Both the position numbers and the translations under genes were made by a program. DNA of 64,000 bases, taken from contig CANKZZ010000001.1 in NCBI GenBank assembly GCA_947488655.1, positions 620,001 to 684,000 on the forward strand. The letters run 5' to 3'. Source of the stretch: an uncultured Psychroserpens sp. GTDB taxonomy: Bacteria; Bacteroidota; Bacteroidia; Flavobacteriales; Flavobacteriaceae. Shown here piece after piece: positions 1,391-63,766 of this stretch; the stretch's first letter is position 1; every line of letters begins with the position of its first letter. The notes beneath the pieces were generated by a model. It worked only from the letters and a program-made list of their open reading frames with translations, was not told the DNA's origin and did no database searches.

Positions 1391-2608
1391 ATGTTATCAT
1401 TAGAAGAATATTACCAAAATAGTTTAGTTAGAGAAAAGCAAAAAATAAATATTATTAAAACTAATCCTAATCACAATATCTTAAATATTGCATCAGGTTT
1501 ACGTGAAATAACAGGAACTAAATTTTTGTACCAATATTATATCAATAATAATTTAATAGGAGGAAAACAAGAATTATTTAACTCAGGAAAGTTATTAGAG
1601 TTTATAAATAAACACTCCGGTTTTAAATATTTCCCAACACAAATAAACAGTTTCTTTTTTATTTTGTCTGATAGTCGAGAAGTTTTGGAAAATTTTAAAG
1701 CAATAATTCTTGATGAATTAGGTTCTAACTCATTTAGGATAACTAATGGTCACTGTTTAGGGTATGTAATTCATCAAATATTAAGTAACAATAGTCAAGA
1801 AGCACTAAAGTATTTAGATATTTTTGAAAAAAAACACAAAAATTATGCACTAAAAAGTAAACATATTTTAATATTAAAAGCAATTATAAATAGCAATAAG
1901 CAAGAAGTAGAAGAACTCCTAGAGTTCTTCCTACTTCCTGTTAATCATAATAAGTCTCCAGATAAAGGCATGATTAGCCATAAATTCATCTCTATAGAAG
2001 CTACTGTACTTGCCAAACTAGCATGGATAAAAGGCATAGAAGTAGATATAGACCATCCATTGTTGCCAAAACAATTATTACCTATCCAACCTAATGATAC
2101 TTATGAGATTGAATATGAGTTTTTAAAAGCAGATTATGAGCCTAACATTAAAACCAAAAAAGAAGTACCAAAACCAAATGCCAAGTATAAAAAGCACCCA
2201 CCAAAAAATAAAATAGAGGTTACCAAGGCTATCATAGAACAGTTGATTATTGATAATTGGGATGCCACCTATACCCAAAAAGAACTTAAGGACAATGTAG
2301 ATTTAATTTATCTTGCATTTACAAACCCCCAAGAATTTGATAAAACACATTACGATTTTGCAAAGTTGGGTAATTATCATATCTCACATCAAAACAAAGA
2401 CAAAATTTATATAGAAAAACAACCATTTACCAATATGTTTACAAACTTTAAAGATGAAATAGATTATTTTTTTGATATGGTTAATGTTTGTTTTGATATT
2501 ATGGGCATACAACTTTTGGATGGCAAACAATATGAAGTTCTCAAAAACCAATTAGAACAAAATAGAGATAATAATAGGGGTTTCTTCGGAAAGCTTTTTA
2601 AAAATTAA
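1391..2608 (+). CDS. Imm49-like immunity protein
   Basis: 405 residues, 12 bp after the toxin gene and 3 bp before the next, so in the same operon. The central part (about residues 120-240) looks like the Imm49 immunity family: an alpha-helical region, then a stretch with SPDKG, HKFISIEATVLAKLAW and IDHPLLP. The last 150 residues are charged (lysine-rich linker near 255-275) and may be a separate domain. There is no signal peptide, so it would act in the cytoplasm by binding the toxin tip. The family call is from recognition of the sequence pattern only. Confidence 0.6.
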   Translation: MLSLEEYYQNSLVREKQKINIIKTNPNHNILNIASGLREITGTKFLYQYYINNNLIGGKQELFNSGKLLEFINKHSGFKYFPTQINSFFFILSDSREVLENFKAIILDELGSNSFRITNGHCLGYVIHQILSNNSQEALKYLDIFEKKHKNYALKSKHILILKAIINSNKQEVEELLEFFLLPVNHNKSPDKGMISHKFISIEATVLAKLAWIKGIEVDIDHPLLPKQLLPIQPNDTYEIEYEFLKADYEPNIKTKKEVPKPNAKYKKHPPKNKIEVTKAIIEQLIIDNWDATYTQKELKDNVDLIYLAFTNPQEFDKTHYDFAKLGNYHISHQNKDKIYIEKQPFTNMFTNFKDEIDYFFDMVNVCFDIMGIQLLDGKQYEVLKNQLEQNRDNNRGFFGKLFKN

Positions 2609-2611
2609 AAA

Positions 2612-3238
2612 ATGTTTAAAAAAATATTTGGAAATGCTTCCAAAAAAGAGCAACAAAAAATTGAGAAATCTGTTAAGCAGGTAAAACAGGGAGAATTCAA
2701 TAAAATATTCCCAATTTTAAAACCAGGAAATTGGATTGGTATCAAACAAGGGGCTTTGGTTCAAACATTTTTGGGTACTACAGAGAGCCCAAAAGTAGTT
2801 ATTGCTTATGGTTATGATACACCAGATAATTTTATTTTTCTAACTCAAATGGATTTAGAGAAAAAATCATCAGATGACATCATTAAAGAGGCATATTCTA
2901 ATTTAGAGAACTACAATACAGAATTTATTCCCTCAAAGGAATTAAATAACCAAGTATTAACCTCTAGTGGTCAAGATTTTTCTAGCGAGCGTATTCTATC
3001 TTCAAAGCATATGCAAAAAGCACATGAGCTTTTAAATGCTGAAGAATTAATAGTATCTATTCCTAGACGTCGTTGTATGATGGTGATGCCAAAAATTCCT
3101 AATAAAGAGTTGTTACAAACATTTATAAATTTACATAAAAATGCTTGGGCAGATGATAGTTTTGGCAATCCTCAAATTACAGATTCATTTTTCTTCATCA
3201 AAGGCGGAAAAATTGTTGGTAGTAAGCCAATGAAATAA
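2612..3238 (+). CDS. DUF1444-like protein in the immunity operon
   Basis: 208 residues, starting 3 bp after the Imm49-like gene. The middle resembles DUF1444/UPF0354 proteins: an AYSNLENY helix near residue 90, then a SS.HM.KA helix and a strand EELIVSIPRRR near 143-153. The N-terminus is basic and not a signal peptide. The position suggests a second protective or accessory protein for the toxin locus, but function is unknown. The gene ends 2 bp from the convergent rpoN stop. Confidence 0.45.
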   Translation: MFKKIFGNASKKEQQKIEKSVKQVKQGEFNKIFPILKPGNWIGIKQGALVQTFLGTTESPKVVIAYGYDTPDNFIFLTQMDLEKKSSDDIIKEAYSNLENYNTEFIPSKELNNQVLTSSGQDFSSERILSSKHMQKAHELLNAEELIVSIPRRRCMMVMPKIPNKELLQTFINLHKNAWADDSFGNPQITDSFFFIKGGKIVGSKPMK

Positions 3239-3240
3239 TC

Positions 3241-4701: not shown

Positions 4702-4813
4702 GCTTTGTGTTGGTTTTAAGTAAAGTTAGAAAAAACTATTTACAATTGCTTACAAATATTATGCCTTTTAACTATAATTTAGAAGTTGTTCTTTTCTTCT
4801 TAAAACGTCTATC

Positions 4814-4854
4814 AATTAAAAAGACCAATCTATTTTTGAATTTAGATTGGTCTT
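4814..4854 (-). terminator. Rho-independent terminator of asnS
   Basis: A 12-bp perfect stem pairs 4821-4832 with 4843-4854 around a 10-base loop. On the minus strand it is followed by a run of Ts (complement of 4816-4820). It lies 25 bp after the asnS stop codon. Confidence 0.85.
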
Positions 4855-4879
4855 ATATTACTTCTATAATTTTAATGAA

Positions 4880-6310
4880 TTAAAACTCTGCATTTTGAGG
4901 TGTACGAGGATAAGGAATTACATCTCTAATATTGCCCATACCAGTAGCAAACATCACTAAACGCTCAAAACCTAGTCCAAAGCCTGAGTGAACAGCAGTA
5001 CCATATTTTCGTAAATCTAAATACCACCATAATTCTTCTTCAGAGATATCTAAAGCTTTCATTTTCTCTTTTAGAACTTCTAAGCGCTCCTCACGTTGAG
5101 AACCTCCAACCATTTCTCCAATACCAGGAAATAAAATATCCATTGCTCTAACCGTTTTTCCGTCTTCATTTAAACGCATATAAAAGGCTTTAATATTTGC
5201 TGGGTAATCAAATAATATCACAGGAGATTTAAAATGTTTTTCTACTAAGAACCGCTCATGTTCACTTTGTAAATCGGCTCCCCATTCTTCAATTATATAA
5301 TTAAATTTCTTCTTTTTATTGGGCTTAGAGTTCTTTAAAATATCAATGGCTTCGGTATAACTAACGCGTTTAAAGTTATTGTCTACAACAAACTTTATTT
5401 TTTCAATCAAACTCATCTCAGAGCGTTCTGCTTGAGGTTTCGTTTTTTCTTCATCTAACAAACGCTGATTTAAAAACTCGAGGTCTTCTAAATTATGCTC
5501 TAAAATATAGTTTAACACAGATTTCATAAAATCTTCTGCTAAATCCATGTTACCAGCCAAATCCATAAATGCCACTTCTGGTTCTATCATCCAAAATTCA
5601 GATAAGTGACGTGTTGTGTTAGAATTTTCTGCTCTAAACGTTGGTCCAAAAGTGTATACTTTCCCTAAAGACATCGCATAGGTTTCTGCTTCTAATTGAC
5701 CCGATACGGTTAGATTAGATTCTTTTCCGAAGAAATCTTTTTTATAATCAATTTTTCCGTCGTCACTTAAAGGAGGATTCTTAATATCTAAAGTGCTAAC
5801 TCTAAATGTTTCTCCTGCACCTTCGGCATCACTTCCAGTAATAATAGGAGTGTGCATATAGTAAAATCCATTGTCATTAAAATACTTATGTACAGCAAAC
5901 GATAATGAAGAGCGTAAACGCATTACTGCGCTAAACGTACTGGTTCTAGTGCGTAAATGTGCGTTTTCTCGTAAAAATTCAAACGTGTGTTTTTTAGGTT
6001 GAATAGGGTATTCTTCTGGATCAGAGTCTCCAAGAATTTCTACAGAGGTTACCTGTATTTCTACTTTTTGACCTTTACCTTGGCTTTCTACCAACTCACC
6101 TTTAATATGCACTGCAGCACCTGTGGTAATACGCTTTAGAATTGATTCGTCTGTGTTTTCAAAATCAACCACACATTGTATATTATTTATCGTAGAACCG
6201 TCATTTAAAGCAATGAAACGATTAGACCTAAATCGTCTTACCCAACCCTTAATCTCTATAGGCTGAAAATTAATATCTTCTGTTAATAATTGTGAAACTG
6301 TATAGCTCAT
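4880..6310 (-). CDS. asnS: Asparaginyl-tRNA synthetase
   Basis: 476 residues, a class IIb aminoacyl-tRNA synthetase that charges tRNA-Asn. The OB-fold anticodon-binding domain occupies about residues 1-110 (IEIKGWVRRFRSNRFIALNDGS). The catalytic domain has motif 2 (TFRAENSNTTRHLSEFWMIEPE) and a C-terminal motif 3 (GFGLGFERLVMFATG). A -7-like TATATTTG lies at 6328-6335 just upstream, inside the end of the exporter gene spacing, so it may have its own promoter. Confidence 0.96.
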   Translation of the reverse strand: MSYTVSQLLTEDINFQPIEIKGWVRRFRSNRFIALNDGSTINNIQCVVDFENTDESILKRITTGAAVHIKGELVESQGKGQKVEIQVTSVEILGDSDPEEYPIQPKKHTFEFLRENAHLRTRTSTFSAVMRLRSSLSFAVHKYFNDNGFYYMHTPIITGSDAEGAGETFRVSTLDIKNPPLSDDGKIDYKKDFFGKESNLTVSGQLEAETYAMSLGKVYTFGPTFRAENSNTTRHLSEFWMIEPEVAFMDLAGNMDLAEDFMKSVLNYILEHNLEDLEFLNQRLLDEEKTKPQAERSEMSLIEKIKFVVDNNFKRVSYTEAIDILKNSKPNKKKKFNYIIEEWGADLQSEHERFLVEKHFKSPVILFDYPANIKAFYMRLNEDGKTVRAMDILFPGIGEMVGGSQREERLEVLKEKMKALDISEEELWWYLDLRKYGTAVHSGFGLGFERLVMFATGMGNIRDVIPYPRTPQNAEF

Positions 6311-6340
6311 TATTTTGAAATTTTATGCAAATATAAATGT

Positions 6341-8752: not shown

Positions 8753-8771
8753 GTGAGTTCTAAAAGAAGCG

Positions 8772-8779
8772 CAAAGTTA
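8772..8779 (-). promoter_or_regulatory. Promoter -7 element of the MMPL exporter
   Basis: The minus strand reads TAACTTTG, matching the Bacteroidota -7 consensus TAnnTTTG, 20 bp before the start codon. No clear -33 element was found. Confidence 0.5.
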
Positions 8780-8826
8780 GAAAAAACCTAGGGATTACAT
8801 ACACTAATTACCGATATATTATCGAC

Positions 8827-10104: not shown

Positions 10105-10130
10105 ATATTTTTAAATAATAAGATTAATTA

Positions 10131-10159
10131 AAAAAAGCGACATTAAGTAAGTCGCTTTT
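10131..10159 (-). terminator. Terminator of frr
   Basis: The stem pairs 10133-10141 with 10151-10159 around a 9-base loop; on the minus strand it runs into a T stretch. It sits at the frr stop codon, separating the pyrH-frr operon from the DUF5686 gene. Confidence 0.8.
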
Positions 10160-10163
10160 GTTT

Positions 10164-12630: not shown

Positions 12631-12679
12631 AAAAAAGTCGTTTAATTTAAACTTTCCGAAGAAAACAACTAAACGACTT
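12631..12679 (-). terminator. Long-loop terminator-like hairpin between rpsB and tsf
   Basis: A 10-bp stem pairs 12635-12644 with 12670-12679 around a 25-base loop and is followed by six Ts on the minus strand. It would end or reduce transcription from rpsB before tsf. The loop carries one copy of the dispersed octamer (12654-12661). Confidence 0.6.
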
Positions 12680-22393: not shown

Positions 22394-25249
22394 TTAATGC
22401 GCCTCCAACCAATTCAAACCCGTATCCACCTCAACATCCAATGGCACATCCATTTTAAAAGCATTTTCCATTTCGGTTTTAATTAAAGAAGTCATTTCTT
22501 CAAGTTCTGGTTTATAGACATCAAAGACCAATTCATCATGAACCTGTAAGAGCATTTTAGTTTTAAAATTTCCGTGGGTTAATTTATTGTAAATATTAAT
22601 CATGGCAATTTTAATAATATCTGCTGCGCTACCTTGTATTGGTGCATTTACAGCATTACGCTCTGCAGCACCACGAACTACTGCATTACGAGAATTAATA
22701 TCTTTTAAATAACGACGTCGACCCAAAACTGTTTGCACATAACCGTTGTCTCTGGCAAAATCAACCTGCTTGCTCATATAAGCTTTTAATTTTGGATAGG
22801 TTTCATAGTAAGTGTCGATAAGCTCTTTAGCTTCACCACGAGATAAATCGGTTTGGTTGCTCAGCCCAAAGGCTGACACGCCATAAATAATCCCAAAATT
22901 AACTGTTTTTGCATTGCTACGTTGCTCTCTCGTAACTTCGTTTATTGAAACACCAAAAACTTTAGAAGCAGTAGAGGCATGAATATCTTCACCATTTTTA
23001 AAAGCCTCAATCATAGTTTCTTCTTCACTTAAGGCAGCGATAATTCGTAATTCTATCTGAGAGTAATCGGCAGCAAGTAGGGTGTAGTCATCATTTCTTG
23101 GTACAAATGCTTTACGCACTTGACGACCACGCTCTGTACGAATAGGTATGTTTTGTAAATTGGGATTGTTACTACTCAAACGACCTGTAGCAGCTACGGT
23201 TTGCATATAATCTGTGTGTACGCGTCCTGTTGCTTCTTCCACTTGTAATGGTAATGCATCTACATACGTACTTTTTAGTTTTGCCAAACCACGATACTCT
23301 AAAATGTTTCTAATAATTTCATGGTCTTTTGCTAAGTATGATAAGATGTCTTCTCCTGTTTTATACTGTCCAGTTTTTGTTTTTTTAGGCTTATCTACCA
23401 ATTTTAATTTATCAAATAAAATTATACCTAATTGTTTTGGTGAAGCAATATTAAATTCTTCTCCTGCAACTTCGTAGATTTTTGCTTCTAATGCAGCAAT
23501 GTCTTTTTCTAAATCTATAGATAATGATTGTAAAAAGGCCTTATCTAAATTAATACCTTCTAATTCCATTGCAGCTAAAACACGAAGTAAAGGCACTTCT
23601 ATATCATCAAATAATTTTTGAGTGTTAGCTTCACCTAATTCCGTTGTAAAATGTTCTTTTAGTTGTAACGTAATGTCGGCATCTTCAACTGCATATTCGG
23701 TTTGTTTCTCTAATGGTACATCTCGCATTGAGAGTTGATTTTTTCCTTTTTTACCAATTAATTCTGTAATAGAAACTGGTGTATAGTTGAGATAGGTCTC
23801 TGCCAAAACATCCATATTATGACGCATATCTGCATTAATAAGATAGTGCGCCAACATAGTGTCAAAGAGTTTTCCTTTAACCTCAACATCGTACTTTGCT
23901 AAGACTTTAATGTCGTATTTTAAATTCTGACCAATCTTTTCAATAGATTCATTTTCAAAAAATGGTCTTAAAACCTCAATGAGATTTTGTGCGTCTTCCT
24001 TTTCCTTCGGAAATGGAACATAAAACCCTTTACCAGCTTCCCATGAAAAGGCGATACCAACGATTTCTGCTGTCAACGGGTTTAAACCAGTTGTTTCTGT
24101 ATCAAAACAAACTGAAGATTGATTTAATAAATTTTTGACAAATAAGGTGGTTGCCATACCTGGAGTAACACTCTGGTAAAAGTGAGATGTTGTCTCTATA
24201 GTTTTTCTGGTAAATTCATTTGTCGTTTCGGATTGTGACGTATCTGAAGGTGCGCCTCCAAACAAAGAAAACTGACCTTCTCCTGCCGATTTTTGCTCTG
24301 TAGGTGTTACCGTAGTTTTGGGTTTAGTATTAGACGATTCTGTAGCTAAAGAAGTAGCCTCATTTCCTGAAGTAAAAGTTTTAATAAAATTATCTGTTAG
24401 ACGTCTAAACTCTAATTCTTGAAAAATTTCTTTTACCTTTTCTACATCTGGATGATCGAGTTCAAAATCTTTAGCGTTAAAGGTCACAGGAACATCTAGC
24501 ATAATAGTTGCTAATTGCTTAGAAAGTAGACCTAATTCTTTATTAGCCTCAATTTTCTCTTTCATTTTACCTTTCAACTCATGTGTGTTTGCCAAAAGGT
24601 TTTCCATACTACCATAAGCTGCCAAAAACTTTTTAGCAGTTTTCTCTCCAACACCTGGTAACCCAGGAATATTATCTGATGAATCTCCCATCATACCCAA
24701 AAAGTCAATCACCTGCATTGGTGTCTCAACTTCAAATTTTTTCTGAACCTCTGGAATTCCCCAAGTTTCATAACCTCCACCAAAAACAGGTCTGTACATA
24801 AAAATATTCTCGGTCACGAGTTGAGCAAAATCTTTATCTGGTGTAACCATAAATACTTTATAACCTTCTGTTTCTGCCTGACGAGAAAGTGTACCGATAA
24901 CATCATCTGCTTCAAATCCTTCTTTCACCATTATAGGAATATGCATGGCTTCTAAAATATTGCAAATGTGTGGTATGGCAGTTTTAATACCTTCTGGAGT
25001 TTCATCTCTGTTAGCTTTATACGCCTCAAATAACTCTACTCTATCTGCACTACCACCTTTGTCAAAACAAACAGCGAGATGATCTGGTCGTTCACGTTTT
25101 ATAACATCTAAAAGTGAGTTCATAAAACCCATAATTGCAGAGGTGTCTTCTCCTTTAGAGTTAATACGAGGATTTTTTATAAAAGCATAATATCCTCTAA
25201 AAATTAGGGCATAGGCATCGACTAGAAATAGGCGTTTTTGGTCTGACAT
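22394..25249 (-). CDS. polA: DNA polymerase I
   Basis: 951 residues with all three activities. The 5' nuclease spans about 1-290 (KEGFEADDVIGT, GDSSDNIPGLPGVGEKTA). The 3'-5' exonuclease begins near 360 and keeps its catalytic DTE (FDTETTGLNP). The polymerase domain has DYSQIELR, the O-helix RSNAKTVNFGIIYG and QVHDELVFDV. The linker between the nuclease and exonuclease (about 296-355) is disordered and contains QFSLF (326-330), close to the beta-clamp-binding consensus. It replaces RNA primers and fills repair gaps. Confidence 0.97.
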   Translation of the reverse strand: MSDQKRLFLVDAYALIFRGYYAFIKNPRINSKGEDTSAIMGFMNSLLDVIKRERPDHLAVCFDKGGSADRVELFEAYKANRDETPEGIKTAIPHICNILEAMHIPIMVKEGFEADDVIGTLSRQAETEGYKVFMVTPDKDFAQLVTENIFMYRPVFGGGYETWGIPEVQKKFEVETPMQVIDFLGMMGDSSDNIPGLPGVGEKTAKKFLAAYGSMENLLANTHELKGKMKEKIEANKELGLLSKQLATIMLDVPVTFNAKDFELDHPDVEKVKEIFQELEFRRLTDNFIKTFTSGNEATSLATESSNTKPKTTVTPTEQKSAGEGQFSLFGGAPSDTSQSETTNEFTRKTIETTSHFYQSVTPGMATTLFVKNLLNQSSVCFDTETTGLNPLTAEIVGIAFSWEAGKGFYVPFPKEKEDAQNLIEVLRPFFENESIEKIGQNLKYDIKVLAKYDVEVKGKLFDTMLAHYLINADMRHNMDVLAETYLNYTPVSITELIGKKGKNQLSMRDVPLEKQTEYAVEDADITLQLKEHFTTELGEANTQKLFDDIEVPLLRVLAAMELEGINLDKAFLQSLSIDLEKDIAALEAKIYEVAGEEFNIASPKQLGIILFDKLKLVDKPKKTKTGQYKTGEDILSYLAKDHEIIRNILEYRGLAKLKSTYVDALPLQVEEATGRVHTDYMQTVAATGRLSSNNPNLQNIPIRTERGRQVRKAFVPRNDDYTLLAADYSQIELRIIAALSEEETMIEAFKNGEDIHASTASKVFGVSINEVTREQRSNAKTVNFGIIYGVSAFGLSNQTDLSRGEAKELIDTYYETYPKLKAYMSKQVDFARDNGYVQTVLGRRRYLKDINSRNAVVRGAAERNAVNAPIQGSAADIIKIAMINIYNKLTHGNFKTKMLLQVHDELVFDVYKPELEEMTSLIKTEMENAFKMDVPLDVEVDTGLNWLEAH

Positions 25250-25437
25250 ATTGAAATTTAAATTGAAGTTTATGTTTTCTTTGATATAAACTGAAAGTTT
25301 TCTATGCGATTAAAATCTTAAGAAAGACGCTTTCAACCTTGCTCAAATAGACAGTTTGCAAATTACAAAAACTTATGCGTTTATTTAGAACATTTTAAAG
25401 TACAATTTGTAATTTTCCGAAGTTAAAAAACAATACA

Positions 25438-26375: not shown

Positions 26376-27464
26376 TTATTGGGATTTTTTATTAAATGGT
26401 AAAAAGTAAAATATCATTGTCCAAACAAAAACTGCGTTAACTATAAATAGTGTGGTTCTATAATTGTATAGTACAATATAGATAGCAATATCTAATACCA
26501 TGAGTAGCATGAAAAAATTGGGTGTGTTTAGCAGTAGCCCTCTCAATGCGGTATGATTATAAACTGTTTTATCTTCTAATTTTAATGTTAGCCAATGCTT
26601 AGTCTCCACAGATAAAGGTATCCAGTTTTGTTTATGATCTTGGTCTAATATTTTAAAGAATCGTTTTAACAGTGTTAAGCTTTTAGCTTTAAAGTGAACC
26701 ATTAATTTATTCTTCGGAAAGTTTAAAAATGCCAACAAAATTAGCACCAATGATTCTAGAAAGTGACCAAATCTAAACGATGTTAGGGTAAATAATGTGG
26801 TATGAAAAATGATTATAAACCATAGTGTTGTAGAGCGAGTTCTTTTAAAAAGTATCATTACAGCTATAGCAAACTCTGTAAACATACCTATGTAAGATAA
26901 TATTTTAGCTAATACCATGTTTGGTAGTAACTCAGAAACATAAAGGTAAACCGGGTTTTCTCTACCACTACCTAACCATGTATCCATAAATGCGCCAGAC
27001 CACCAGTCTGCATCCAAAAATTTGTTAATAGAAGCCCCAAAATACACTAAACTTAGTTGTAATATTAAGAGATATGGTGGTTGTTTGTTATTAGATAAAC
27101 CTGCCAAAATAAGAGCACAAGCACAAATAAAAGTGTGATTAAAAAAAAGAGGTTTAGAGCCTAAGGTGTTTACTATAATTACCAATCCTATTGCAATACT
27201 TGCGGTTCTAACTTTAATATTAAAAAACAGGCAAAAAACGCCAAGTAATAATATCGCTTTTAAAGCGTAGTTAAAAAGATTAGGGTAGTTATGAAAATAG
27301 TCTAAAGCAGGAATAAACGGAATAAATGGGTCTGCAATTTTAAAGAAAATATGATGGGTCACTAATAGAATAACTAATAATTTACACATTAATAATACAT
27401 TTGCATGCATTTTTGTGCCTTCAAATTGAAACGGTCTAATTAAAAATGTTTTTAAATTGCTCAT
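26376..27464 (-). CDS. HTTM-like multi-spanning membrane protein
   Basis: 362 residues with about nine or ten hydrophobic helices. The segment LVYFGASINKFLDADWWSGAFMDTWLG near residue 140 resembles the HTTM / vitamin-K-dependent-carboxylase-like membrane family. The catalytic residues of true carboxylases cannot be confirmed. Its start overlaps the end of the upstream 113-aa gene by 4 bp (ATGA), so both are made together. Confidence 0.6.
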   Translation of the reverse strand: MSNLKTFLIRPFQFEGTKMHANVLLMCKLLVILLVTHHIFFKIADPFIPFIPALDYFHNYPNLFNYALKAILLLGVFCLFFNIKVRTASIAIGLVIIVNTLGSKPLFFNHTFICACALILAGLSNNKQPPYLLILQLSLVYFGASINKFLDADWWSGAFMDTWLGSGRENPVYLYVSELLPNMVLAKILSYIGMFTEFAIAVMILFKRTRSTTLWFIIIFHTTLFTLTSFRFGHFLESLVLILLAFLNFPKNKLMVHFKAKSLTLLKRFFKILDQDHKQNWIPLSVETKHWLTLKLEDKTVYNHTALRGLLLNTPNFFMLLMVLDIAIYIVLYNYRTTLFIVNAVFVWTMIFYFLPFNKKSQ

Positions 27465-27802
27465 CGTTTATAAATCCATTCTTTTTGTTGGTGACCATTG
27501 GTTTCATATTTAACGACGACTTGGGCATTGTCAGATTTTCCGTAGGTATCTTCATACTGAGAAATTAATGAAAATACATTATCAATAGATCGTTGTTCCC
27601 ATCCTTTCATTTTGTATTTGTAACGCGCTTCGGCTTCTTGTTGAGTTAAAGTTGTTCCGTCAATGGTTACAAAAGTTTCAAATAAAGTATGACTATCATA
27701 TGGAGCCCAACAGAAAAAACGCTCTGGTACAAAACGAGCATACACAATACCTCCTACTTGTAGCAAGAGAAAAGCAATTCCGAAGTAAAACCTAATTTTC
27801 AT
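27461..27802 (-). CDS. Unknown membrane-anchored 113-aa protein
   Basis: One N-terminal membrane helix or uncleaved signal (FYFGIAFLLLQVGGIVYARF) is followed by a polar outer domain of about 90 residues with several tryptophans and tyrosines and no cysteine pair. It overlaps the HTTM-like gene by 4 bp and probably works with it. Small partners like this are common next to HTTM proteins in Flavobacteriaceae, but I cannot name a family. Confidence 0.65.
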   Translation of the reverse strand: MKIRFYFGIAFLLLQVGGIVYARFVPERFFCWAPYDSHTLFETFVTIDGTTLTQQEAEARYKYKMKGWEQRSIDNVFSLISQYEDTYGKSDNAQVVVKYETNGHQQKEWIYKR

Positions 27803-32530: not shown

Positions 32531-33943
32531 ATGACAAATTATACAGATAACACGTATTTAGAACTTTTTAAATCACAAAAAGCTAATCAATTTAAAATTG
32601 GTAAAATGACCTATAAGCAGCGTTTAAAAAAACTCAAATCGCTACAAATTGCTTTAGAGAAAACATATAAACAACAACTTAGAGATGCATTATATAAGGA
32701 TTTTAAAAAACCACAGTTAGAGGTCGATCTTACCGAAATCTATCCAGTAATAGACGAAATTAGGTTTATAAGAAAACATTTAAAATCATGGTTAAAAAAT
32801 CAAAAGGTAGACACGCCAATTTCTTTATTAGGTAGCTCTTCTTGGATAAAAAATGAACCTAAAGGTGTTTGTTTAATTATATCACCATGGAATTTTCCTG
32901 TAAATTTAACCTTTGGCCCATTAGTCTCTGCAATCGCAGCAGGTAATACAGTTATTTTAAAACCCAGTGAAATGACACCTCACACATCTAAAGTGATGTC
33001 AAATATTGTGAGTCACCTTTTTTCAAATGATGAAGTTGCACTTATTGAGGGAGAAGTTGAGGTGTCTACAGAGTTGCTCAAATTGCCATTTAATCATATC
33101 TTTTTTACAGGCTCACCTCAAGTTGGTAAGATTGTTATGAAAGCAGCTTCTGCTCATCTAACATCTGTAACTTTAGAATTGGGTGGGAAGTCACCTGTAA
33201 TTATTGATGATAATTCAAATCTTGATAATGCGGTTAAGAAAATTATCTTCGGAAAATTTCTAAACGCAGGTCAAACTTGCATCGCACCAGATTATGTACT
33301 TATTCACGAATCGCTGACATCTAATTTTGTTGCTGCATTTAAAAAACATTTAAAAGATTTTTATTCTGAAGACCCTTCACAATCAAATTCCTTCGGAAGG
33401 ATTGTAAATCAAAAACATTTTAAGAGATTACAAAACTATCTGGATGATGCAAGAAATAGACATGCAGATATTGCTATTGGCGGAATTTCCGAAGAAAATG
33501 AAAATTATATAGAACCTACTGTTGTATTTGATGCTCCCGAAGAAAGCGAATTAATGCAGAATGAAATTTTCGGACCCATACTTCCTGTAAAGACTTACAG
33601 CTCAATTTCTGAAGTTTTAGATTACATTAATTCAAAAGAAAAACCTTTGGCACTTTACATTTTTAGTAATGATAATAAACGAGTTACTGAGATTATAAAT
33701 AATACACGAGCAGGAAGTACATGTGTTAATCATAATCTGCTCCAGTTCTTAAATCATAATTTACCATTTGGAGGTTCTAATAATAGCGGTATAGGAAAAT
33801 CTCATGGCTATTTTGGGTTTTTAGAATTCACCAATCAACGTTCTGTATTAAAACAACATACTTTAGGAGCTGTTGATTTATTAAAACCGCCTTATACCAA
33901 TTTTAAACAAAAGCTAGTAGATTTAACGATTAAGTGGTTTTAA
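32531..33943 (+). CDS. Aldehyde dehydrogenase (ALDH3-like)
   Basis: 470 residues. NAD(P)-dependent oxidation of aldehydes to acids. The nucleotide-binding motif (SPWNFPVNL and FTGSPQVGK), general-base Glu in LELGGKSP and catalytic Cys in GQTCIAPDY are present. Length and the C-terminal hydrophobic-basic tail fit class-3 aldehyde dehydrogenases acting on fatty or aromatic aldehydes. Its stop overlaps the convergent glycosylasparaginase stop by 4 bp. Confidence 0.9.
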   Translation: MTNYTDNTYLELFKSQKANQFKIGKMTYKQRLKKLKSLQIALEKTYKQQLRDALYKDFKKPQLEVDLTEIYPVIDEIRFIRKHLKSWLKNQKVDTPISLLGSSSWIKNEPKGVCLIISPWNFPVNLTFGPLVSAIAAGNTVILKPSEMTPHTSKVMSNIVSHLFSNDEVALIEGEVEVSTELLKLPFNHIFFTGSPQVGKIVMKAASAHLTSVTLELGGKSPVIIDDNSNLDNAVKKIIFGKFLNAGQTCIAPDYVLIHESLTSNFVAAFKKHLKDFYSEDPSQSNSFGRIVNQKHFKRLQNYLDDARNRHADIAIGGISEENENYIEPTVVFDAPEESELMQNEIFGPILPVKTYSSISEVLDYINSKEKPLALYIFSNDNKRVTEIINNTRAGSTCVNHNLLQFLNHNLPFGGSNNSGIGKSHGYFGFLEFTNQRSVLKQHTLGAVDLLKPPYTNFKQKLVDLTIKWF

Positions 33944-34941
33944 GCTTTATCAAAATAATCTGAATGTACGTTTTCATTTTTTCCATCCTGATATTTCATA
34001 TAGGTGAAACCTTTATGTATGCAATAAGAACCAGTTTCACCAGCTTTATTAATAGCAATATAGGCGATTTGAAAATCTTTATAACGATCATTTTTGCTCG
34101 TAATACGATTTACAGCTTCAACACAGGCATCTTGAGGTGACATGCCATTTCTCATTAATTCAACAATTAGAAAACTTCCAACAGTCTTTAAAACCTCTTC
34201 ACCCATTCCTGTAGCAACTGCACCTCCTATTTCGTTATCAATAAATAAACCAGAGCCAATTATAGGAGAGTCACCTACACGACCTTTCATTTTATATGAT
34301 AATCCAGAAGTGGTACATGCACCAGCAATATCCCCATCCTTATCCATACAAAGCATACCAATAGTGTCATGGTTTTCAATATTAATTAGAGGTTTGTATT
34401 CTGGCGATTCTAACCACTTTTCCCATGCTTTTTTTGAGGCATCGGTTAAAAGTTGATCTTTTTCAAACCCTTGTCTATAGGCAAATTCTTCGGCACCTTT
34501 GGAAGCCAAAATAACATGCGGAGTTTCTGTCATAACGCGTTTGGCTAATTCTGCTACATTTGTGATGTTCTCCACACATAACACAGATCCGCAATCACCA
34601 TTACTATCCATAACGCAGGCATCTAATGTGACGTTGCCTTCTCTATCTGGCGCGCCACCTTTGCCAACTGTTGTGTTTTTTAAATTCTCCTCTTCAACCT
34701 CAACGCCAGAAATCGCTGCATCAAGTGCTTTTACACCTTTGCTCAACTCTTCTCCTGCTTTAGCATTGGCATTTGCAAAACCCCAAGTACATATTGCAAT
34801 AGGAGTATTTTGAGTTTTAGTTTTCATTGTCGCTTCTTTTTTTTCTTCGGAAGGCGTATCTGCACAACCCGTTAATGTTTTGCCTATAGCCAGTCCAGCA
34901 CCAGTTAGAGCTGCATTTCTAATAAATTGTCGTCTTTTCAT
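33940..34941 (-). CDS. N4-(beta-N-acetylglucosaminyl)-L-asparaginase, exported
   Basis: 333 residues of the glycosylasparaginase (Ntn) family, which removes Asn from the GlcNAc stub left by N-glycan digestion. The predicted self-cleavage site is NHDTIGML with Thr193 as nucleophile; GRVGDSPIIGSG follows. The N-terminus has a twin-arginine motif (KRRQFIRN) and a lipobox-like TLTGC (Cys26), so it is exported through Tat, perhaps as a lipoprotein. It is next to a sugar transporter and GH92 on the same strand. Confidence 0.88.
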   Translation of the reverse strand: MKRRQFIRNAALTGAGLAIGKTLTGCADTPSEEKKEATMKTKTQNTPIAICTWGFANANAKAGEELSKGVKALDAAISGVEVEEENLKNTTVGKGGAPDREGNVTLDACVMDSNGDCGSVLCVENITNVAELAKRVMTETPHVILASKGAEEFAYRQGFEKDQLLTDASKKAWEKWLESPEYKPLINIENHDTIGMLCMDKDGDIAGACTTSGLSYKMKGRVGDSPIIGSGLFIDNEIGGAVATGMGEEVLKTVGSFLIVELMRNGMSPQDACVEAVNRITSKNDRYKDFQIAYIAINKAGETGSYCIHKGFTYMKYQDGKNENVHSDYFDKA

Positions 34942-36688: not shown

Positions 36689-39637
36689 TTATTTAATTGA
36701 AATCTCATCTGCAAAAATCCAACTTCTACCATCATGAGGATATCCCAAATGCCAGGTTGGTAATTCTCCCATTTTTTTAGCAATGATTTTAACGTAACGA
36801 TACTCTTCCGCAGTTAAAGTAAAAAGTATTTCTTTTATTATTCTGTCTTCATTTCGTTTTGCAGCATCTATTTTAATGGTTTCGATAGACGTAAATTGAT
36901 TTCCGTCTTTAGAAACGAGACACTCTACTTCGGTTGGGTAGAAAATCCATGCACCTTGATCTTGTAGAAAATTGATGCTAATGTTTTCTATAGGTTTTAA
37001 GCTTCCCAAATCTACTGTGGCAATGACGTCTTTATCTGAGTAACCTTGCCAAGTGCCAGTTCTAAAATCTTGCGTACCCATAATGCCATCAATTAACGCA
37101 TTGTTACCTCCAGCATTATATTGATTGGCATATTCTGTATCTAATTTAATAGAGAGATTTGGGTCTATTTTGTAGAAATTGGTTTCTACAGTAGCGCTTT
37201 TATTTCCAAATTCATCAATTGCATAAATGTTCAATGGCATTGCTTCGGAAATTTTAAATGGTGCACTATATAGCTTAAATTCAGAATCGTTCATGCTGTA
37301 AAAAATTTCTGTTTTAGAGTTTACAATTCCTAAGCTTACTTCGGTTTCATCTTTAAATGCAACATCGCCTTTAGCAATAAAAGGAACTGGAACTATAAGA
37401 TGTTCATTAATTTCAGTTTTAGGTTCTTGACCTTCTTGACTTCCCCAAATTGCAGGATTATCGGTCATTTTAAATTCTAATGTTCCGCCAGCCATGATAT
37501 CTTCATGAGATATAAATGATTGATTTAGCGCTTTTCCGTTAAGGTAAACATGTTCGATATAAATGTTTGTGTCACTTAAATTATGAGCTGCAATAGTAAA
37601 TTGTTTTCCGCTTTCTAAATTAATTGTAGCCTTTTCAAAAAGAGGTGTTCCTATGATATACTGATTACTTCCTGGTGTTACAGGATAAAATCCCATAGAT
37701 GAAAACACGTACCATGCGCTCATTTGTCCGCAATCTTCATTACCAGAAATTCCGTCAGGTTCATTGGTATATAACTCGGTTAAAATTTGATGAACTTTCT
37801 CTTGTGTTTTGTGAGGCTTGTTGACGAAATTATACAAATAAGCCATGTGGTGGCTTGGCTCATTTCCGTGAGCGTATTGTCCAATTAAACCTGTAATATC
37901 TGCTTGATTGCGACCAGAAGTTTCGGCTTGCGCAGTAAATAATTCATCTAATTGCGCTTCTAGTTTATCTTTTCCGCCGAGAAGATTCATAAAGCCAGAC
38001 ACATCTTGAGGTACGTAAAAACTATATTGCCATGAGTTGGCTTCGGTATAATTAAAATTGACTTCATACGGATCAAAAGGTGCAAACCATGTGTTTCTAA
38101 ATCGTCCTCGCATAAATTTAGTTTCAGGATCGTAAATATTCTTGTAAAATTGAGCTCTTTCTGAGTATAATTTATAATCGTCATCCTTTCCCATTGCTTT
38201 TGCCATTTGAGCAATCGTCCAATCGTCATACGCATATTCTAGTGTTTTAGAAACCGATTCGCTTTCTTCTTCCACGGGAATAAAGCCAAATTCCTTATAA
38301 GATTTGAGTCCGAGTTTGTCTCTCGTAGCCGAATGTTTCATAGCATGTAAAGCCTTTTCTACATCATAACCTCTAATGCCTTTCATGTAAGCATCTGAAA
38401 TTACGGGAACTGCATGATAGCCAATCATACAGCCTGTGTAATTAGCACTTAAATCCCAAATTGGCATAATACCACCTTCATCATGTTTTGCTAGAAATGT
38501 ATTGATAAAATCATTAGTGCGATCTTGTTCTATAATCGTATAGAGTGGGTGAGCAGCACGATAAGTGTCCCAAAGTGAAAAGACGGTGTAATATTCAAAA
38601 TCTTTTGTTTCGTGGATTTCTAAATCCATACCTCGATAGCGACCATCAACATCTTGATATAAGTTTGGAGCTAACATAGTGTGATATAATGAAGTGTAAA
38701 AGTTTGTTTTATAATCGTCATTTTGAGATTCTATAACAATCTTATCAAGTTGCGTTTCCCAAGAATCTTGGGCTTCTTTTTTTACTGCTTCAAATGTTTT
38801 GTTGCCTATCTCTTGCTGTAGGTTTTTTGTTGCTCCTGCTTGATCAACTGCAGAAATTCCTACTTTAACAAAAACAGGATTGTTGTTTGGGTTATTAAAT
38901 TCTATGGCTGCTTTTTTGCTTTGGTATTTGTAATTTTTAGAAATAGGCGTTTCATCTTCAACGTAAGTGATGTTTTTTATGGATTTTGAAAATTGAATGG
39001 TATAAAACAAACGTTGGTCTGTAGCCCACGCTTTAGAATGTCTATAACCCGAAATTGTTGAGTCATTGACTTTTTGAATTTTATAATCTAAAACTTGATC
39101 ACGATGCTCTAAATCTAGGATTACGAACTGATTTTCTTCCGTAGGAAATTGATATTTATGAACTCCACTACGTTTTGATACGGTTAGTTCTACATCAATA
39201 TTTGTGTCGTCTAAATGCACTTTGTAATAACCAGGTTGTGCAATTTCGTTATTGTGAGAAAAATGAGCGCGATAGCCTGATTTATTATCGCTCCCATTAT
39301 TAAAATTAATACTATTAGTTGGCATTAGCAAAATGTCTCCATAATCACTAACACCTGTTCCGCTGAGGTGTGTGTGCGAAAATCCATAAATATACTCATC
39401 ACTATAATGATAGCCAGAGCAACCATCCCAACCTTCTAGTCGAGTATCTGGACTAAGTTGCATCATGCCAAAAGGCATTGTAGCTCCAGGATAGGTGTGC
39501 CCATGGCCTCCAGTACCTATGAAAGGATTTACATACTCAATAAGTGGTTTGTCTTTTTTTGAGATTTCTATTTGTGATTCTGCTTTACAACTTATTAGAA
39601 GTAAAGCTGTTAAAACAATAGAAAAAAGAGATTTCAT
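36689..39637 (-). CDS. GH92 family alpha-mannosidase lipoprotein
   Basis: 982 residues with a lipoprotein signal (LLLISC, Cys17). The GH92 fold is clear from VNPFIGTGGHGHTYPGA near residue 36 and GNEDCGQMSAWYVFSSMGFYP in the C-terminal half. GH92 are calcium-dependent exo-alpha-mannosidases. The last 150 residues look like a discoidin/F5-8C-type carbohydrate-binding domain (TVDLGSLKPIENISI). It would trim mannose from N-glycans at the cell surface or in the periplasm. Confidence 0.92.
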   Translation of the reverse strand: MKSLFSIVLTALLLISCKAESQIEISKKDKPLIEYVNPFIGTGGHGHTYPGATMPFGMMQLSPDTRLEGWDGCSGYHYSDEYIYGFSHTHLSGTGVSDYGDILLMPTNSINFNNGSDNKSGYRAHFSHNNEIAQPGYYKVHLDDTNIDVELTVSKRSGVHKYQFPTEENQFVILDLEHRDQVLDYKIQKVNDSTISGYRHSKAWATDQRLFYTIQFSKSIKNITYVEDETPISKNYKYQSKKAAIEFNNPNNNPVFVKVGISAVDQAGATKNLQQEIGNKTFEAVKKEAQDSWETQLDKIVIESQNDDYKTNFYTSLYHTMLAPNLYQDVDGRYRGMDLEIHETKDFEYYTVFSLWDTYRAAHPLYTIIEQDRTNDFINTFLAKHDEGGIMPIWDLSANYTGCMIGYHAVPVISDAYMKGIRGYDVEKALHAMKHSATRDKLGLKSYKEFGFIPVEEESESVSKTLEYAYDDWTIAQMAKAMGKDDDYKLYSERAQFYKNIYDPETKFMRGRFRNTWFAPFDPYEVNFNYTEANSWQYSFYVPQDVSGFMNLLGGKDKLEAQLDELFTAQAETSGRNQADITGLIGQYAHGNEPSHHMAYLYNFVNKPHKTQEKVHQILTELYTNEPDGISGNEDCGQMSAWYVFSSMGFYPVTPGSNQYIIGTPLFEKATINLESGKQFTIAAHNLSDTNIYIEHVYLNGKALNQSFISHEDIMAGGTLEFKMTDNPAIWGSQEGQEPKTEINEHLIVPVPFIAKGDVAFKDETEVSLGIVNSKTEIFYSMNDSEFKLYSAPFKISEAMPLNIYAIDEFGNKSATVETNFYKIDPNLSIKLDTEYANQYNAGGNNALIDGIMGTQDFRTGTWQGYSDKDVIATVDLGSLKPIENISINFLQDQGAWIFYPTEVECLVSKDGNQFTSIETIKIDAAKRNEDRIIKEILFTLTAEEYRYVKIIAKKMGELPTWHLGYPHDGRSWIFADEISIK

Positions 39638-41962: not shown

Positions 41963-44900
41963 CTATTCTTGGATTCCTATAATTTGATCTATTGTATCTT
42001 TTGGGAAATCGCGCTCTTCTCTAGCTGGAGGTGTAGCTTCATCGACTTCGTCATCAGTAAAGTGCTTAAATAATTTTAGATACTTGTTAAACTTCTCAGT
42101 TTCTTGCATCGCAAATTCTTTATCATTGTAAATGACTAAAATGTCTACTAAACTTCTATAGCGTTCTATATCTGTTACAATTTCATCTATGTAACGTGTT
42201 TGATTTTCTATAGTCAACTCGCTCCAATACGTTAGATTCTCTTGATATTTTCTCGTTACATCTGTATAAAGTTGTCTTGCCTTATCTTTTTTGTCAATTT
42301 CATAATAAGCACTAATGTAAGGTTCTAATAATGTATAGAAGCCAAATTTATCAACAGGCATTTTTTTCATAGCTAAATCTGCAATTTTCTCTGCTTTATT
42401 TAGCTCACCTTCGTTTATCAACTGCTCTAAAAGTCTTGCAAGATTACCTCTGTATGTAATACCATTTTTTCGAGTTTCTACATCATGGTATATATTATCA
42501 CTACCACTATTTCCCCAATCCCAAGACATTACTTTATCATACATAAGGTCTGTATCTACACGTCCCATATCAAATGGATTTGCTCTATCCACAGGTGTTT
42601 TAATTGGTACTAGTTTGTAGCATAATCCATCAAGCTGAAGGTAATCTTTCATCCAGATATAATCTTCATCACCAAAGGCACCACCAGTAAAATAGATAGG
42701 TCGTTTCCAATCGTTATTTGCTATAATATCAAGCATTAATAATCTATTCTTATATAAAGCACCTCCAGATATTGTAATATCGATGAAAGGTTCAATTTTA
42801 TCAGCATCTTTTTGTTTTACGATACCATTTTTTAATACAGCATTTTTGTCTACCGGAACTCTAACATGGGACGTTGGTAGATAGTTTGAGTTTTGCAACT
42901 GTATAGGGTAACCATTAGGGTCTTCTCCTTTACGTTGCATAGCATACTTAAGGCTATATTTAGGATCATCATTAGATATGAAATTCATAAACTCCTTTAT
43001 CATCATGGTGTCCTTTGTAATTTCATACTTCATTATATAATCTCGTGTACCGTATTTATATTGGTCATGAGTTAATTGTGAAGGGATTGGGTCACTTTCA
43101 TACGCTTTGCGCTTCATTTGATCAATGTACCAATCTGTTTGAAATAAACTTGTATTTACAACACGAACGTCTGTTCTTACGCCTTCAATCTCTTGTAAAT
43201 ACCAAAGTGGGAAACTATCATTGTCTCCAATGGTAAATAGTATCGCATTTGGTGCGCAAGATTCTAGATACTTTCGAGCCATGGCTTGTGCTGTATATTT
43301 TTCAGATCTATCATGATCATCCCAATTTTCTGCAGCTAAAATTCCTGGAACTAGTAATAAAGCAACTATAGTTATAGCAGGTGCTAAAAATTTGGAACTC
43401 GTATATTTTCGAAGTACATCAAAAATTGCATAAACGCCAAAACCTATCCAAATAGCAAAAACATAGAAAGAACCTACAACAGAGTAATCTCTTTCTCGTG
43501 GTTCAAATGGTCTAACATTGGTGTAAAACTGTATGGCTAATCCTGTAAATAAAAAGAATACAAGTAAAACCCAAAAACGTTTTGGATCTCGTCCTAATAA
43601 GAATAAAAAACCTATAATTCCTAGAATTAAAGGCAACATATAATAAGTGTTTCTTGATTTATTATTGGCTACATCACTTGGAAGGTTGTCTTGTGACATG
43701 CCTAAACGAGCTTCGTCTATAAAATCTATACCACTAATCCAATTACCATGTAAGTCGTCATATCGTCCTTGGATGTCATCTTGACGTCCAGAGAAATTCC
43801 ACATAAAATAACGCCAATACATATATCCTAATTGATAGTCTACCATGTATGCAAGGTTATCTCCAAATGATGGTTTCTCTACAACAAGAAAATCTCTACC
43901 AAACTGTTTTAAGAACATATGGTAATCTTCGTAGTCAACTTTACCTTGAGCAACTTCATTTTTAAACTCATTAACCAATTGGCGCACCTGATTTTCCATT
44001 TGGTATTCTGGTTTAATTCTAAAATCTAACAAGCCTGTAAACATCATGTAATTTTCGGCATGCTCTGTACTCCACATTCGAGGTAATATCGACGCATGTT
44101 TAGAATTATAGCGTTGCTCAGCGTTTTTCCACTGGTTAACAATTACATATTCACCTTTGTCATAATCTTTTTCATACTTCGGTTTTGCATCTTTATATGG
44201 ATTGTTTTCATCTAAACCAGAATATTGATCTGTAAATAGTGGACCGTAAAATAAATGAGTTTCAGGATATTGCTCTAGATTATAATAAGCTAATAACTCT
44301 CTGGCACTAGAAGGATTATTTTCATTAATAATTACATTAGCATTAGCACGTATTGGCAACATAACCCACGATGAAAACCCAATAAATATAAAAATTAAGC
44401 AAAGTGTTAAGGTGTTGGCATATTTATAACCTTTATTGCGTGTATATTTTAAACCGAAATAGAATGCTACTACTAAAAGTAATCCGGTGATTATAGATCC
44501 TGAGTTAAAAGGTAAACCAATGGTGTTGACAAAGAAAATTTCCGAAGCACTAAAAAGTAAAAGCGCATTTGGAAGTAGTAATTTAAATATAAAAAGTAAG
44601 ATTGCTGCTGCCGATATGTTAGCAATAATGAAACTTATGACAGTAACTTTATAATTTTTGAAATAATAAATTAGACCTAAAGCAGGAATGGTTAATAATC
44701 CCATAAAATGAACTCCAAACGATAAGCCAATAACAAAAGCAATTAAGATTAACCATCTATGACCTCTAGGTTTGTGCATGTCTTCTTCCCATCGCAAGCC
44801 TAAATAAAATAAGATAGACATAATTAATGTTGCCATAGCATAAACCTCTGTTTCTACAGCATTAAACCAAAATGAATCTGTAAAAGTAAATGCCAAACTA

Positions 44901-51163: not shown

Positions 51164-51222
51164 AAATTAAATAATTATTAATTTTTGTTTCTTCGGAATT
51201 TACTTTAGTAAAATATGAGCAT

Positions 51223-56550: not shown

Positions 56551-56582
56551 AAAAATTAATTAAGAAACAATTATAATAGATT

Positions 56583-58313: not shown

Positions 58314-58321
58314 AATAGTAC

Positions 58322-58852: not shown

Positions 58853-58861
58853 TTGATACAG

Positions 58862-59443: not shown

Positions 59444-59467
59444 GATAGATAAAGATTATATATAGAT

Positions 59468-60859: not shown

Positions 60860-60886
60860 TAAATTATATAAAGAACAGAAACGACA

Positions 60887-61951: not shown

Positions 61952-61972
61952 GATTAAAAAAGAAAAAAGATT

Positions 61973-63766
61973 ATGTCAGCACACGCAGATACCCACGCAC
62001 ACGACGACGATCATGGACATCATCATAAAGAGACTTTTGTAACTAAATACATATTTAGTCAAGATCATAAAATGATTGCAAAACAGTATCTAATTACAGG
62101 TACAATTATGGGTGTTATTGGTGTTTTAATGTCAATAATGTTCCGTATGCAAATTGCTTGGCCAGAACAACCAAATGTTTTATTTGAAGCATTATTGGGT
62201 AAATGGGCTCCAGGTGGTGTTATGGATGCAGATATTTATTTGGCGTTAGTTACAATACATGGTACTATCATGGTATTCTTTGTACTAACAGCAGGTTTGA
62301 GTGGTACATTTAGTAACTTACTAATTCCATTGCAAATTGGAGCACGAGATATGGCATCAGGTTTTTTAAACATGGTATCATATTGGTTGTTTTTCTTATC
62401 AAGTGTTATAATGATTATTTCATTATTTGTAGAAGCAGGACCAGCAGCAGCAGGTTGGACTATTTATCCACCATTAAGTGCTTTGCCAATGGCACAAGGA
62501 GGTTCTGGTATGGGGATGACCTTATGGTTAGTTTCTATGGCAATATTTATTGCATCTTCTTTATTGGGATCACTTAACTACGTAGTTACTGTAATCAACT
62601 TAAGAACTAAAGGTATGTCTATGACGCGTTTACCTTTAACAATATGGGCTTTCTTTGTAACAGCAATTATTGGTATTGTATCGTTCCCAGTACTTTTATC
62701 TGCAGCATTATTACTTATAATGGATAGAAGTTTTGGTACATCATTCTTCTTATCAGATATTTTTATTCAAGGTGAAGTTTTACATTATCAAGGAGGTTCT
62801 CCTGTTTTATTTGAGCACTTATTTTGGTTCTTAGGTCACCCAGAGGTATATATAGTATTATTACCAGCATTAGGTATTACTTCAGAAATTATAGCAACCA
62901 ACTCACGTAAACCAATCTTTGGTTACAGAGCCATGGTTATGTCAATTCTTGCAATTGCTTTTCTCTCAACGATTGTTTGGGGACACCATATGTTTATATC
63001 AGGTATGAATCCATTTTTGGGATCTGTATTTACATTTACAACACTTTTAATCGCAATACCATCTGCAGTAAAAGCCTTTAACTATATTACTACCCTTTGG
63101 AAAGGTAATTTGCAAATGAATCCAGCTATGCTTTTCTCTATTGGATTAGTATCAACCTTCATTACAGGAGGTTTAACAGGAATTATTTTAGGTGATAGTG
63201 CATTAGATATTAACGTGCATGACACATACTTCGTAGTAGCGCATTTTCACTTAGTAATGGGTATATCTGCATTGTATGGTATGTTTGCAGGAATTTATCA
63301 CTGGTTCCCAAGAATGTTTGGTCGTATGCTTAATAAAAATCTTGGCTATTTACACTTTTGGGTAACAGCAATCTGTGCTTATGGTGTTTTCTTCCCAATG
63401 CACTTCATAGGTATGGCAGGTTTACCAAGACGTTATTATACAAATTCTAATTTCCCTTTATTTGATGATACAGCTAATGCTAACGTTGTAATTACAATGT
63501 TTGCAATAATAGGAGGTATCTTTCAATTAGTATATTTATGGAATTTCTTTTATTCTATTTTCTTCGGAAAAAAGGCAGAGAAAAATCCTTGGAGATCTAC
63601 AACATTAGAGTGGACTGCTCCAGTAGAGCATATTCATGGTAACTGGCCAGGAGAAATACCTCACGTACATCGTTGGGCTTATGATTATAGCAAACCTGGT
63701 CATGAAGATGATTTTGTACCGCAAGATGTACCATTATACGATGGTGAAGAAGAATTACAACATTAG
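61973..63766 (+). CDS. coxA: Cytochrome c oxidase subunit I
   Basis: 597 residues with about twelve helices. The active-site blocks are present: GHPEVYIVLLP (CuB His and the cross-linked Tyr), HHMFISGMNP (two CuB His), and HDTYFVVAHFHLVMG (haem ligands). The N-terminus starts with a histidine-rich tail (about residues 4-23). It reduces oxygen and pumps protons. A terminator follows, and subunits III and IV are not in the window. Confidence 0.97.
   Translation: MSAHADTHAHDDDHGHHHKETFVTKYIFSQDHKMIAKQYLITGTIMGVIGVLMSIMFRMQIAWPEQPNVLFEALLGKWAPGGVMDADIYLALVTIHGTIMVFFVLTAGLSGTFSNLLIPLQIGARDMASGFLNMVSYWLFFLSSVIMIISLFVEAGPAAAGWTIYPPLSALPMAQGGSGMGMTLWLVSMAIFIASSLLGSLNYVVTVINLRTKGMSMTRLPLTIWAFFVTAIIGIVSFPVLLSAALLLIMDRSFGTSFFLSDIFIQGEVLHYQGGSPVLFEHLFWFLGHPEVYIVLLPALGITSEIIATNSRKPIFGYRAMVMSILAIAFLSTIVWGHHMFISGMNPFLGSVFTFTTLLIAIPSAVKAFNYITTLWKGNLQMNPAMLFSIGLVSTFITGGLTGIILGDSALDINVHDTYFVVAHFHLVMGISALYGMFAGIYHWFPRMFGRMLNKNLGYLHFWVTAICAYGVFFPMHFIGMAGLPRRYYTNSNFPLFDDTANANVVITMFAIIGGIFQLVYLWNFFYSIFFGKKAEKNPWRSTTLEWTAPVEHIHGNWPGEIPHVHRWAYDYSKPGHEDDFVPQDVPLYDGEEELQH

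Follow-up and report, generated by a model that had tools for sequence, protein, structure and literature searches.

A dispersed, T-tract-flanked octamer in an uncultured Psychroserpens genome resembles a DNA uptake signal

Results

A single octamer dominates the genome of an uncultured Psychroserpens species of the family Flavobacteriaceae

The octamer CTTCGGAA recurs throughout the stretch of Psychroserpens DNA analysed here (64 kb, hereafter the window). Counting over the whole 3.6 Mb genome gave 1194 copies (614 + 580 on the two strands), about one per 3.0 kb or 0.33 per kb, against 119 (62 + 57) for the reversed word that served as control. The shape of the word, its placement and its distribution among relatives suggest that it is the core of a watermark of the DNA uptake sequence (DUS) or uptake signal sequence (USS) type, a reading to which we assign a probability of about 0.58.

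The window holds 17 copies between positions 2584 and 63569, 10 on the plus and 7 on the minus strand, the same figures that an initial annotation of this DNA had reported. That annotation had estimated that a random sequence would hold one or two, in line with the mean of 0.95 obtained in 100 dinucleotide shuffles, none of which reached 17 (maximum 6). It was also right that the heptamer TTCGGAA is always preceded by C (17 of 17) and often lengthened, in 10 of 17 cases to TTCTTCGGAA, and that copies are sense, antisense and, in four cases, intergenic; by the list of open reading frames (ORFs) the other 13 are 8 sense and 5 antisense.

Larger numbers were obtained from a 784,636-bp sample of the same genome (40 stretches plus the window), which contains 268 copies. 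Markov models predicted 13.4 copies at order 3 and 134.4 at order 5 (observed/expected, O/E, 2.0). The order-5 figure is circular, because nearly all copies of the sub-words sit inside CTTCGGAA itself (268 of 274 for CTTCGGA and 268 of 285 for TTCGGAA), and a maximal-order model of the window, which expects 13 copies where 17 occur, is affected in the same way. A fair comparison needs a codon-aware null. With genes called by a simple script (646 genes, 87.6 % coding), 221 genic copies were found, compared to 11.75 after within-gene shuffling of synonymous codons (40 shuffles). A second run of 60 shuffles gave a mean of 11.3 and a maximum of 19 (O/E 19.5). These results confirm that codon usage does not account for the excess, as the initial annotation had argued from the window. 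When all octamers of the sample were ranked, CTTCGGAA was the most over-represented (z 69.7), and the next ones overlap it.

The octamer is the core of a longer, polar motif

Alignment of the 268 sites revealed a full motif consisting of a T-tract, CTnCGGAA and an A, which is polar and non-palindromic, the reverse complement of CTTCGGAA being TTCCGAAG. T occupies 79 % of sites at position -3, 71 % at -2 and 65 % at -1, with an excess that extends to about -8, and A is found in 72 % at +8. The cleanest pattern is that of the intergenic sites, usually a run of T, CTTCGGAA and AT. All 24 one-base variants were then compared with the codon-shuffled null and for upstream T content. The upstream T fraction was 0.67 for CTTCGGAA and about 0.35 for most other variants, and only two variants, both at the third base, paired an excess over the codon null with a raised T-tract: CTACGGAA (45 genic copies vs 8.6, 5.2-fold; upstream T 0.54) and CTGCGGAA (39 vs 4.9, 8.0-fold; 0.50). 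The flank was present at CTCCGGAA (0.67), yet this variant had just 8 copies vs 4.6 expected, and CTTCCGAA and CTTCGGCA exceeded the codon null 4.2- and 4.1-fold without the flank. Near misses at the last base, CTTCGGA[CGT], were scarce, with 1 genic copy vs 14.1 expected.

Copies are indifferent to strand and gene sense and are missing from an integrase island

Genic copies showed no preference for either orientation relative to the gene (111 sense, 110 antisense). Intergenic DNA held 47 of the 268 copies in 12.4 % of the sequence (P 0.015), and 14 of 39 classified intergenic sites fell between convergent genes, which make up 10.4 of 66.2 kb (P 0.0016). Between tandem genes, 12 of 17 sites lay on the strand of the adjoining genes, several of them right behind the stop codon. 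The strand split was 75/67 across 400 kb of contig 1, without strong bias on the other large contigs. A strand bias relative to origin and terminus, which the initial annotation had proposed to look for, was not seen when replication direction was deduced from local GC skew only, not from a mapped origin or terminus: the split was 133/132 in this genome and 85/95 in 460 kb of the 3.14 Mb main contig of a relative (G101).

The longest of the 141 gaps between sites in the 400 kb measures 25.5 kb (contig 1, 306.7-332.2 kb; L096 from 6743 to L097 12218), a length with a chance of about P 0.017. Ten of its proteins were scanned and nine had a family, among them a tyrosine-recombinase integrase, DUF3987, DUF3871, PAPS-reductase-domain, AAA and ResIII helicase proteins and a class-V aminotransferase. 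The gene content is reminiscent of an integrated island encoding a DNA-phosphorothioation-type defence system. Absence of the motif from this one integrase island fits a low motif content of imported DNA.

Enrichment is patchy within the Flavobacteriaceae

A genome was called enriched if CTTCGGAA was more than three times as frequent as the reversed word and had at least 400 copies; the copy threshold was added because the ratio becomes deceptive when few reversed copies exist (up to 208 vs 4 outside the family). Of the 299 Flavobacteriaceae genomes, 27 were enriched by this definition; they belong to 18 of the 236 genera and carry 0.13-0.70 copies per kb, compared to 0.12 per kb in the densest sampled genomes outside the family. 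The extremes among the 299 were 2678 vs 245 (G279, 3.8 Mb) and 7 vs 54 (G010). Ratios within the genus of the window ranged from 3.0x to 10x (1194/119 in the genome of the window, 858/182, 707/220), and four family genomes classed as non-enriched (G266, G096, G074, G285) still carried 606-833 copies at ratios of 1.4-2.5. Among 48 named genomes four were enriched: Psychroserpens burtonensis (1060/173), Algibacter miyuki (847/256) and two metagenome bins (600/147 and 875/195). A set of 80 polA loci from named near relatives showed no enrichment as a group (110 CTTCGGAA vs 132 reversed); another word, GAGGGGAC, was found 71 times in these pooled loci (L001-L080) vs 4.4 expected.

Samples of eight other enriched genomes gave codon-aware ratios from 2.2 (G100, weak) to 10.8, and samples of seven un-enriched genomes held 2 copies altogether. 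The extended flank was weaker in other enriched genomes than in the Psychroserpens genome. No comparable dispersed word was detected in 20-40 kb samples of eight un-enriched genomes. In two un-enriched genomes, G010 and G164, longer words were repeated locally. In the G010 sample (L135-L136) a 13-base word around TTTCGCGAAAGCG recurred 16 times within 40 kb, and CTTCGGAA is depleted genome-wide there. A second word, CTTCAGAA, was co-enriched in CTTCGGAA-rich genomes (e.g. G039, G279 and G100), with an O/E of 2.8-5.6 in the eight enriched samples vs 0.7-2.8 in the seven un-enriched ones. It carries no T-tract flank, and its count in the Psychroserpens genome is 0.97 times the codon-shuffled expectation; its reading as a dialect of CTTCGGAA is uncertain.

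A candidate receptor lies next to an outer-membrane protein gene

Transformation of Riemerella anatipestifer is described as requiring ComEC, DprA, ComF, RecA and four further proteins that lack known counterparts; these four include a DUF5689/DUF5017 protein and the CarboxypepD_reg protein encoded next to it (PMC8459023). The Psychroserpens genome carries ComEC and a lipoprotein (L204:6062-7492) that matched DUF5689 at 177 bits, DUF5017 below threshold (26.3 of 28.8 bits) and the NCBIfam Riemerella family M949_1556 at 200.8 bits, under the model cut of 475. Its gene adjoins one for an outer-membrane-type protein with CarboxypepD_reg, and beside this pair lies a gene of the Exo_endo_phos_3 nuclease family with an apparent signal peptide. 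Because both genes of the pair are essential for transformation in Riemerella, the DUF5689 lipoprotein beside the outer-membrane protein is the leading candidate receptor, and a candidate only.

When trees were built for the lipoprotein (50 rows) and its partner (49 rows), enriched genomes clustered, with 5 and 4 label changes vs about 17 after shuffling (0 of 500 as low), a pattern that shared ancestry would be expected to produce. Identification of the receptor by co-variation was rejected: a seeming discordance, in which the partner tree but not the lipoprotein tree grouped the Psychroserpens genus with un-enriched genomes of the Mesoflavibacter type, dissolved in pairwise comparison. The DUF5689 domains of these un-enriched genomes, at 62-64 % to that of the Psychroserpens genome, are closer to it than the domains found in enriched genomes of all other genera. 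At least two types of the lipoprotein C-terminal domain (about 30 or 60 % identity) cross the line between enriched and un-enriched genomes. These types also cut across the tree of the neighbours, as if swapped. A profile of the lipoprotein alignment gave no significant match in the PDB (best E 0.094).

Positions of the copies in the window

The copies in the window are listed in Table 1. The protein encoded at 1391-2605 matches the Imm49 immunity-protein family. The polA gene of the window has Olleya aquimaris (89 %) and Arcticiflavibacter luteus (88 %) as nearest named matches, followed by Winogradskyella and Algibacter, and the assignment to the Flavobacteriaceae rests on these matches. Another word, TCGGCAGC, occurs 7 times in the window vs 0.33 expected (order 3) and 116 times in the 80 polA loci vs 23.5, an excess that is probably gene- or codon-linked.

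Table 1. The 17 copies of CTTCGGAA in the window and their context.
Position	Strand	Context	Flank
2584..2591	+	sense, close to 3' end of ORF 1391-2608	TTTCTTCGGAAA
5725..5732	-	sense in ORF 4880-6310	
12654..12661	-	intergenic, tandem genes	TTTTCTTCGGAAA
13707..13714	-	intergenic, tandem genes	
24005..24012	+	antisense in polA, ORF 22394-25249	
25415..25422	-	intergenic, divergent genes	
26712..26719	+	antisense in ORF 26376-27464	
27778..27785	-	sense, at start of ORF 27461-27802	
33247..33254	+	sense in ORF 32531-33943	
33391..33398	+	sense in ORF 32531-33943	
33487..33494	-	antisense in ORF 32531-33943	
34845..34852	+	antisense in ORF 33940-34941	
37243..37250	+	antisense in glycoside hydrolase 92 gene, ORF 36689-39637	
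44540..44547	-	sense in TMEM260-like gene, ORF 41963-45319	
51191..51198	+	intergenic, convergent genes	TTTCTTCGGAA
55886..55893	+	sense in ferredoxin-domain gene, ORF 53293-56550	
63562..63569	+	sense in ORF 61973-63766	TTTTCTTCGGAAAA

Discussion

From the statistics of the motif we infer a role in DNA uptake, a protein that reads it and an evolutionary drive that spreads it. The double-stranded motif, T-tract, CTnCGGAA and A, would be recognised at the cell surface by a sequence-preferring step of transformation; DNA bearing it would be taken up and recombined more often, and the motif would accumulate genome-wide, on both strands, wherever proteins tolerate it. This reading appears to fit best because a strong single word with an indispensable core and an AT-tract flank occurs in genic and intergenic DNA, equally on both strands and without coding-strand preference, is absent from the integrase island, and coexists with competence genes. 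The numbers of copies, 1194 here and 2678 in G279, also support it, because published uptake words are similar in order, with 1,465 for the 9-bp core of Haemophilus influenzae and 1,892 for the 10-bp word of Neisseria meningitidis (PMC7811141). The initial annotation had offered Chi-like, uptake-like and protein-binding roles; the uptake-like one fits best, the Chi-like one lacks the expected polarity, and a protein-binding word in a wider sense is a possibility.

Conservation of the sites in two genomes of the same genus, where octamers of like composition were kept at 5-17 %, gave a divided answer: 9 of 17 aligned sites were exact in G045 (P 0.00017; about 14 % for comparable octamers), which speaks for an uptake signal, and the 5 of 17 in G267 were not significant (P 0.086). 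Several other observations weigh against an uptake signal. The even spacing that the initial annotation had suggested checking was not found, the 142 sites in the 400 kb of contig 1 being spaced as in a random arrangement (coefficient of variation 1.08; random 0.85-1.14). Furthermore, the presence of ComEC (266 of 299 genomes) and DUF5689 (271 of 299) does not predict the motif, since both are near-universal in the family. Among genomes at least 90 % complete, all 23 enriched ones had ComEC, as did 215 of the 226 others. The Fisher test of this contrast (P 0.61) used 24/24 and 214/225, one genome off, and the absence of enrichment among the 11 of 249 near-complete genomes that have no ComEC was not significant. 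Nor does lipoprotein similarity follow the motif, since versions closer to that of the Psychroserpens genome occur in some un-enriched genomes than in many enriched ones. Finally, neither CTTCGGAA as a genomic motif nor a Bacteroidota uptake word was reported among the literature matches listed. As a side observation, within one genus, g31, the near-complete genome G030 has neither ComEC nor DUF5689 and 91 motif copies vs 209 reversed, and in G256 both genes are present and the counts are 516 vs 219 (ratio 2.4, below the cut of 3), a single case.

Two other readings also invoke a protein that recognises the word, and we regard both as improbable. The main rival is a Chi-type word, at which an AddAB helicase-nuclease repairing a break would read a single strand and turn from degrading the DNA to promoting recombination. 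The 8-base length and the over-representation agree with this, and AddAB-like pairs exist: two PF12705 matches, of about 930 and 1,060 aa, were found in 20 of 21 genomes, including the Psychroserpens genome, and one in G010. However, the leading-strand polarity expected of Chi was absent from every large stretch, with direction taken from local GC skew, and un-enriched genomes have AddAB too, yet their 20-40 kb samples held no comparable dispersed word. A conserved double-stranded T-tract flank is not a known feature of Chi. A binding site for an abundant chromosome-organising or nucleoid protein, one every few kilobases, would explain a polar, extended, genome-wide site with an invariant core, and the higher density between convergent genes (14 of 39 intergenic sites) would suit it. 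The motif is strong in only 27 of the 299 family genomes, however, and differences of up to several-fold within a genus (707 to 1194 copies in that of the window) are fast for an architectural element; no known protein family of this kind was identified.

Two further readings fare worse. That codon use, mutation or base modification produced the word as a side effect, as has been suggested for HIP1, a palindrome of cyanobacterial genomes, is very unlikely: the low order-5 ratio and the excess of the relatives CTTCCGAA and CTTCGGCA speak for it, but the genic excess survives codon shuffling some 221 to 11, the motif is cleanest at intergenic copies, and a non-palindromic word makes a symmetric methylase site unlikely. 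We give still less credence to an RNA element, either a UUCG-capped hairpin, whose tetraloop core the initial annotation had noted, or part of a terminator. The CUUCGG core with its TTT..AAA flanks, the 12 of 17 tandem intergenic sites on the strand of their neighbours, and the tolerance at base 3, which equals the N of UNCG and would be a coincidence that an RNA function has to explain, are consistent with it. Against it, genic copies are as often antisense as sense, the positions that would pair in a stem (-1/+6 and -3/+8) showed no compensation in the sample, and the T-tract precedes the core, where an intrinsic terminator has it after. A UUCG hairpin is thus unlikely.

An uptake signal in this family would have wider consequences. 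A 2025 paper describes uptake words as known, and their origin and purpose as studied, in two proteobacterial families only, the Neisseriaceae and the Pasteurellaceae (PMC12616744). It is possible, and we put it forward tentatively, that CTTCGGAA belongs to a third, independently evolved self-DNA watermark, the first outside the Proteobacteria, read by the DUF5689 lipoprotein, its CarboxypepD_reg partner and the secreted-looking nuclease instead of a pilin, and gained or re-tuned several times within the family. If so, an uptake word would have arisen in another, unrelated phylum that uses other uptake genes, which would mean that the trait evolves repeatedly, and numerous pairs of close relatives that differ in the mark (3.0x to 10x within one genus; enriched beside un-enriched sister genera) would allow its origin to be tested. 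Riemerella columbina is reported to favour its own DNA, and the raw k-mer count published for it gave A-rich words only (PMC7965970); an uptake word would explain this preference only if Riemerella columbina has a counterpart of it.

Comparison with known systems

Like HIP1 (GCGATCGC) of cyanobacteria, CTTCGGAA is a single word that dominates a genome; HIP1 is palindromic and described as tied to methylases, and CTTCGGAA is not palindromic. With the Chi sites of RecBCD and AddAB it shares octamer size, over-representation and the presence of AddAB-like genes, and it differs from them in having no strand polarity and an extended double-stranded flank. The resemblance to the DUS of Neisseriaceae (GCCGTCTGAA and its dialects) lies in density, strand symmetry and restriction to a family, with a hint of a related version in CTTCAGAA, which is raised in enriched genera; the sequence is unrelated, and CTTCAGAA comes without the T-tract flank. 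The receptors of the known uptake signals are the pilin ComP and, as a prediction, ComN/PpdA. Compared to the USS of Pasteurellaceae (core AAGTGCGGT), the core and the phylum are different, the AT-tract lies just 5' of the core where the USS has two tracts downstream, and canonical type IV pilus parts are reported as mostly missing in the family member Flavobacterium johnsoniae (PMC7965970). In common with the USS, the motif has a short non-palindromic core that is found on both strands, in genic and intergenic DNA, with copy numbers in the hundreds to thousands, and an indispensable CpG-containing inner core, CGG here and the crucial GCGG of the H. influenzae word with its AT-rich segments (PMC7811141), set beside an AT-rich flank.

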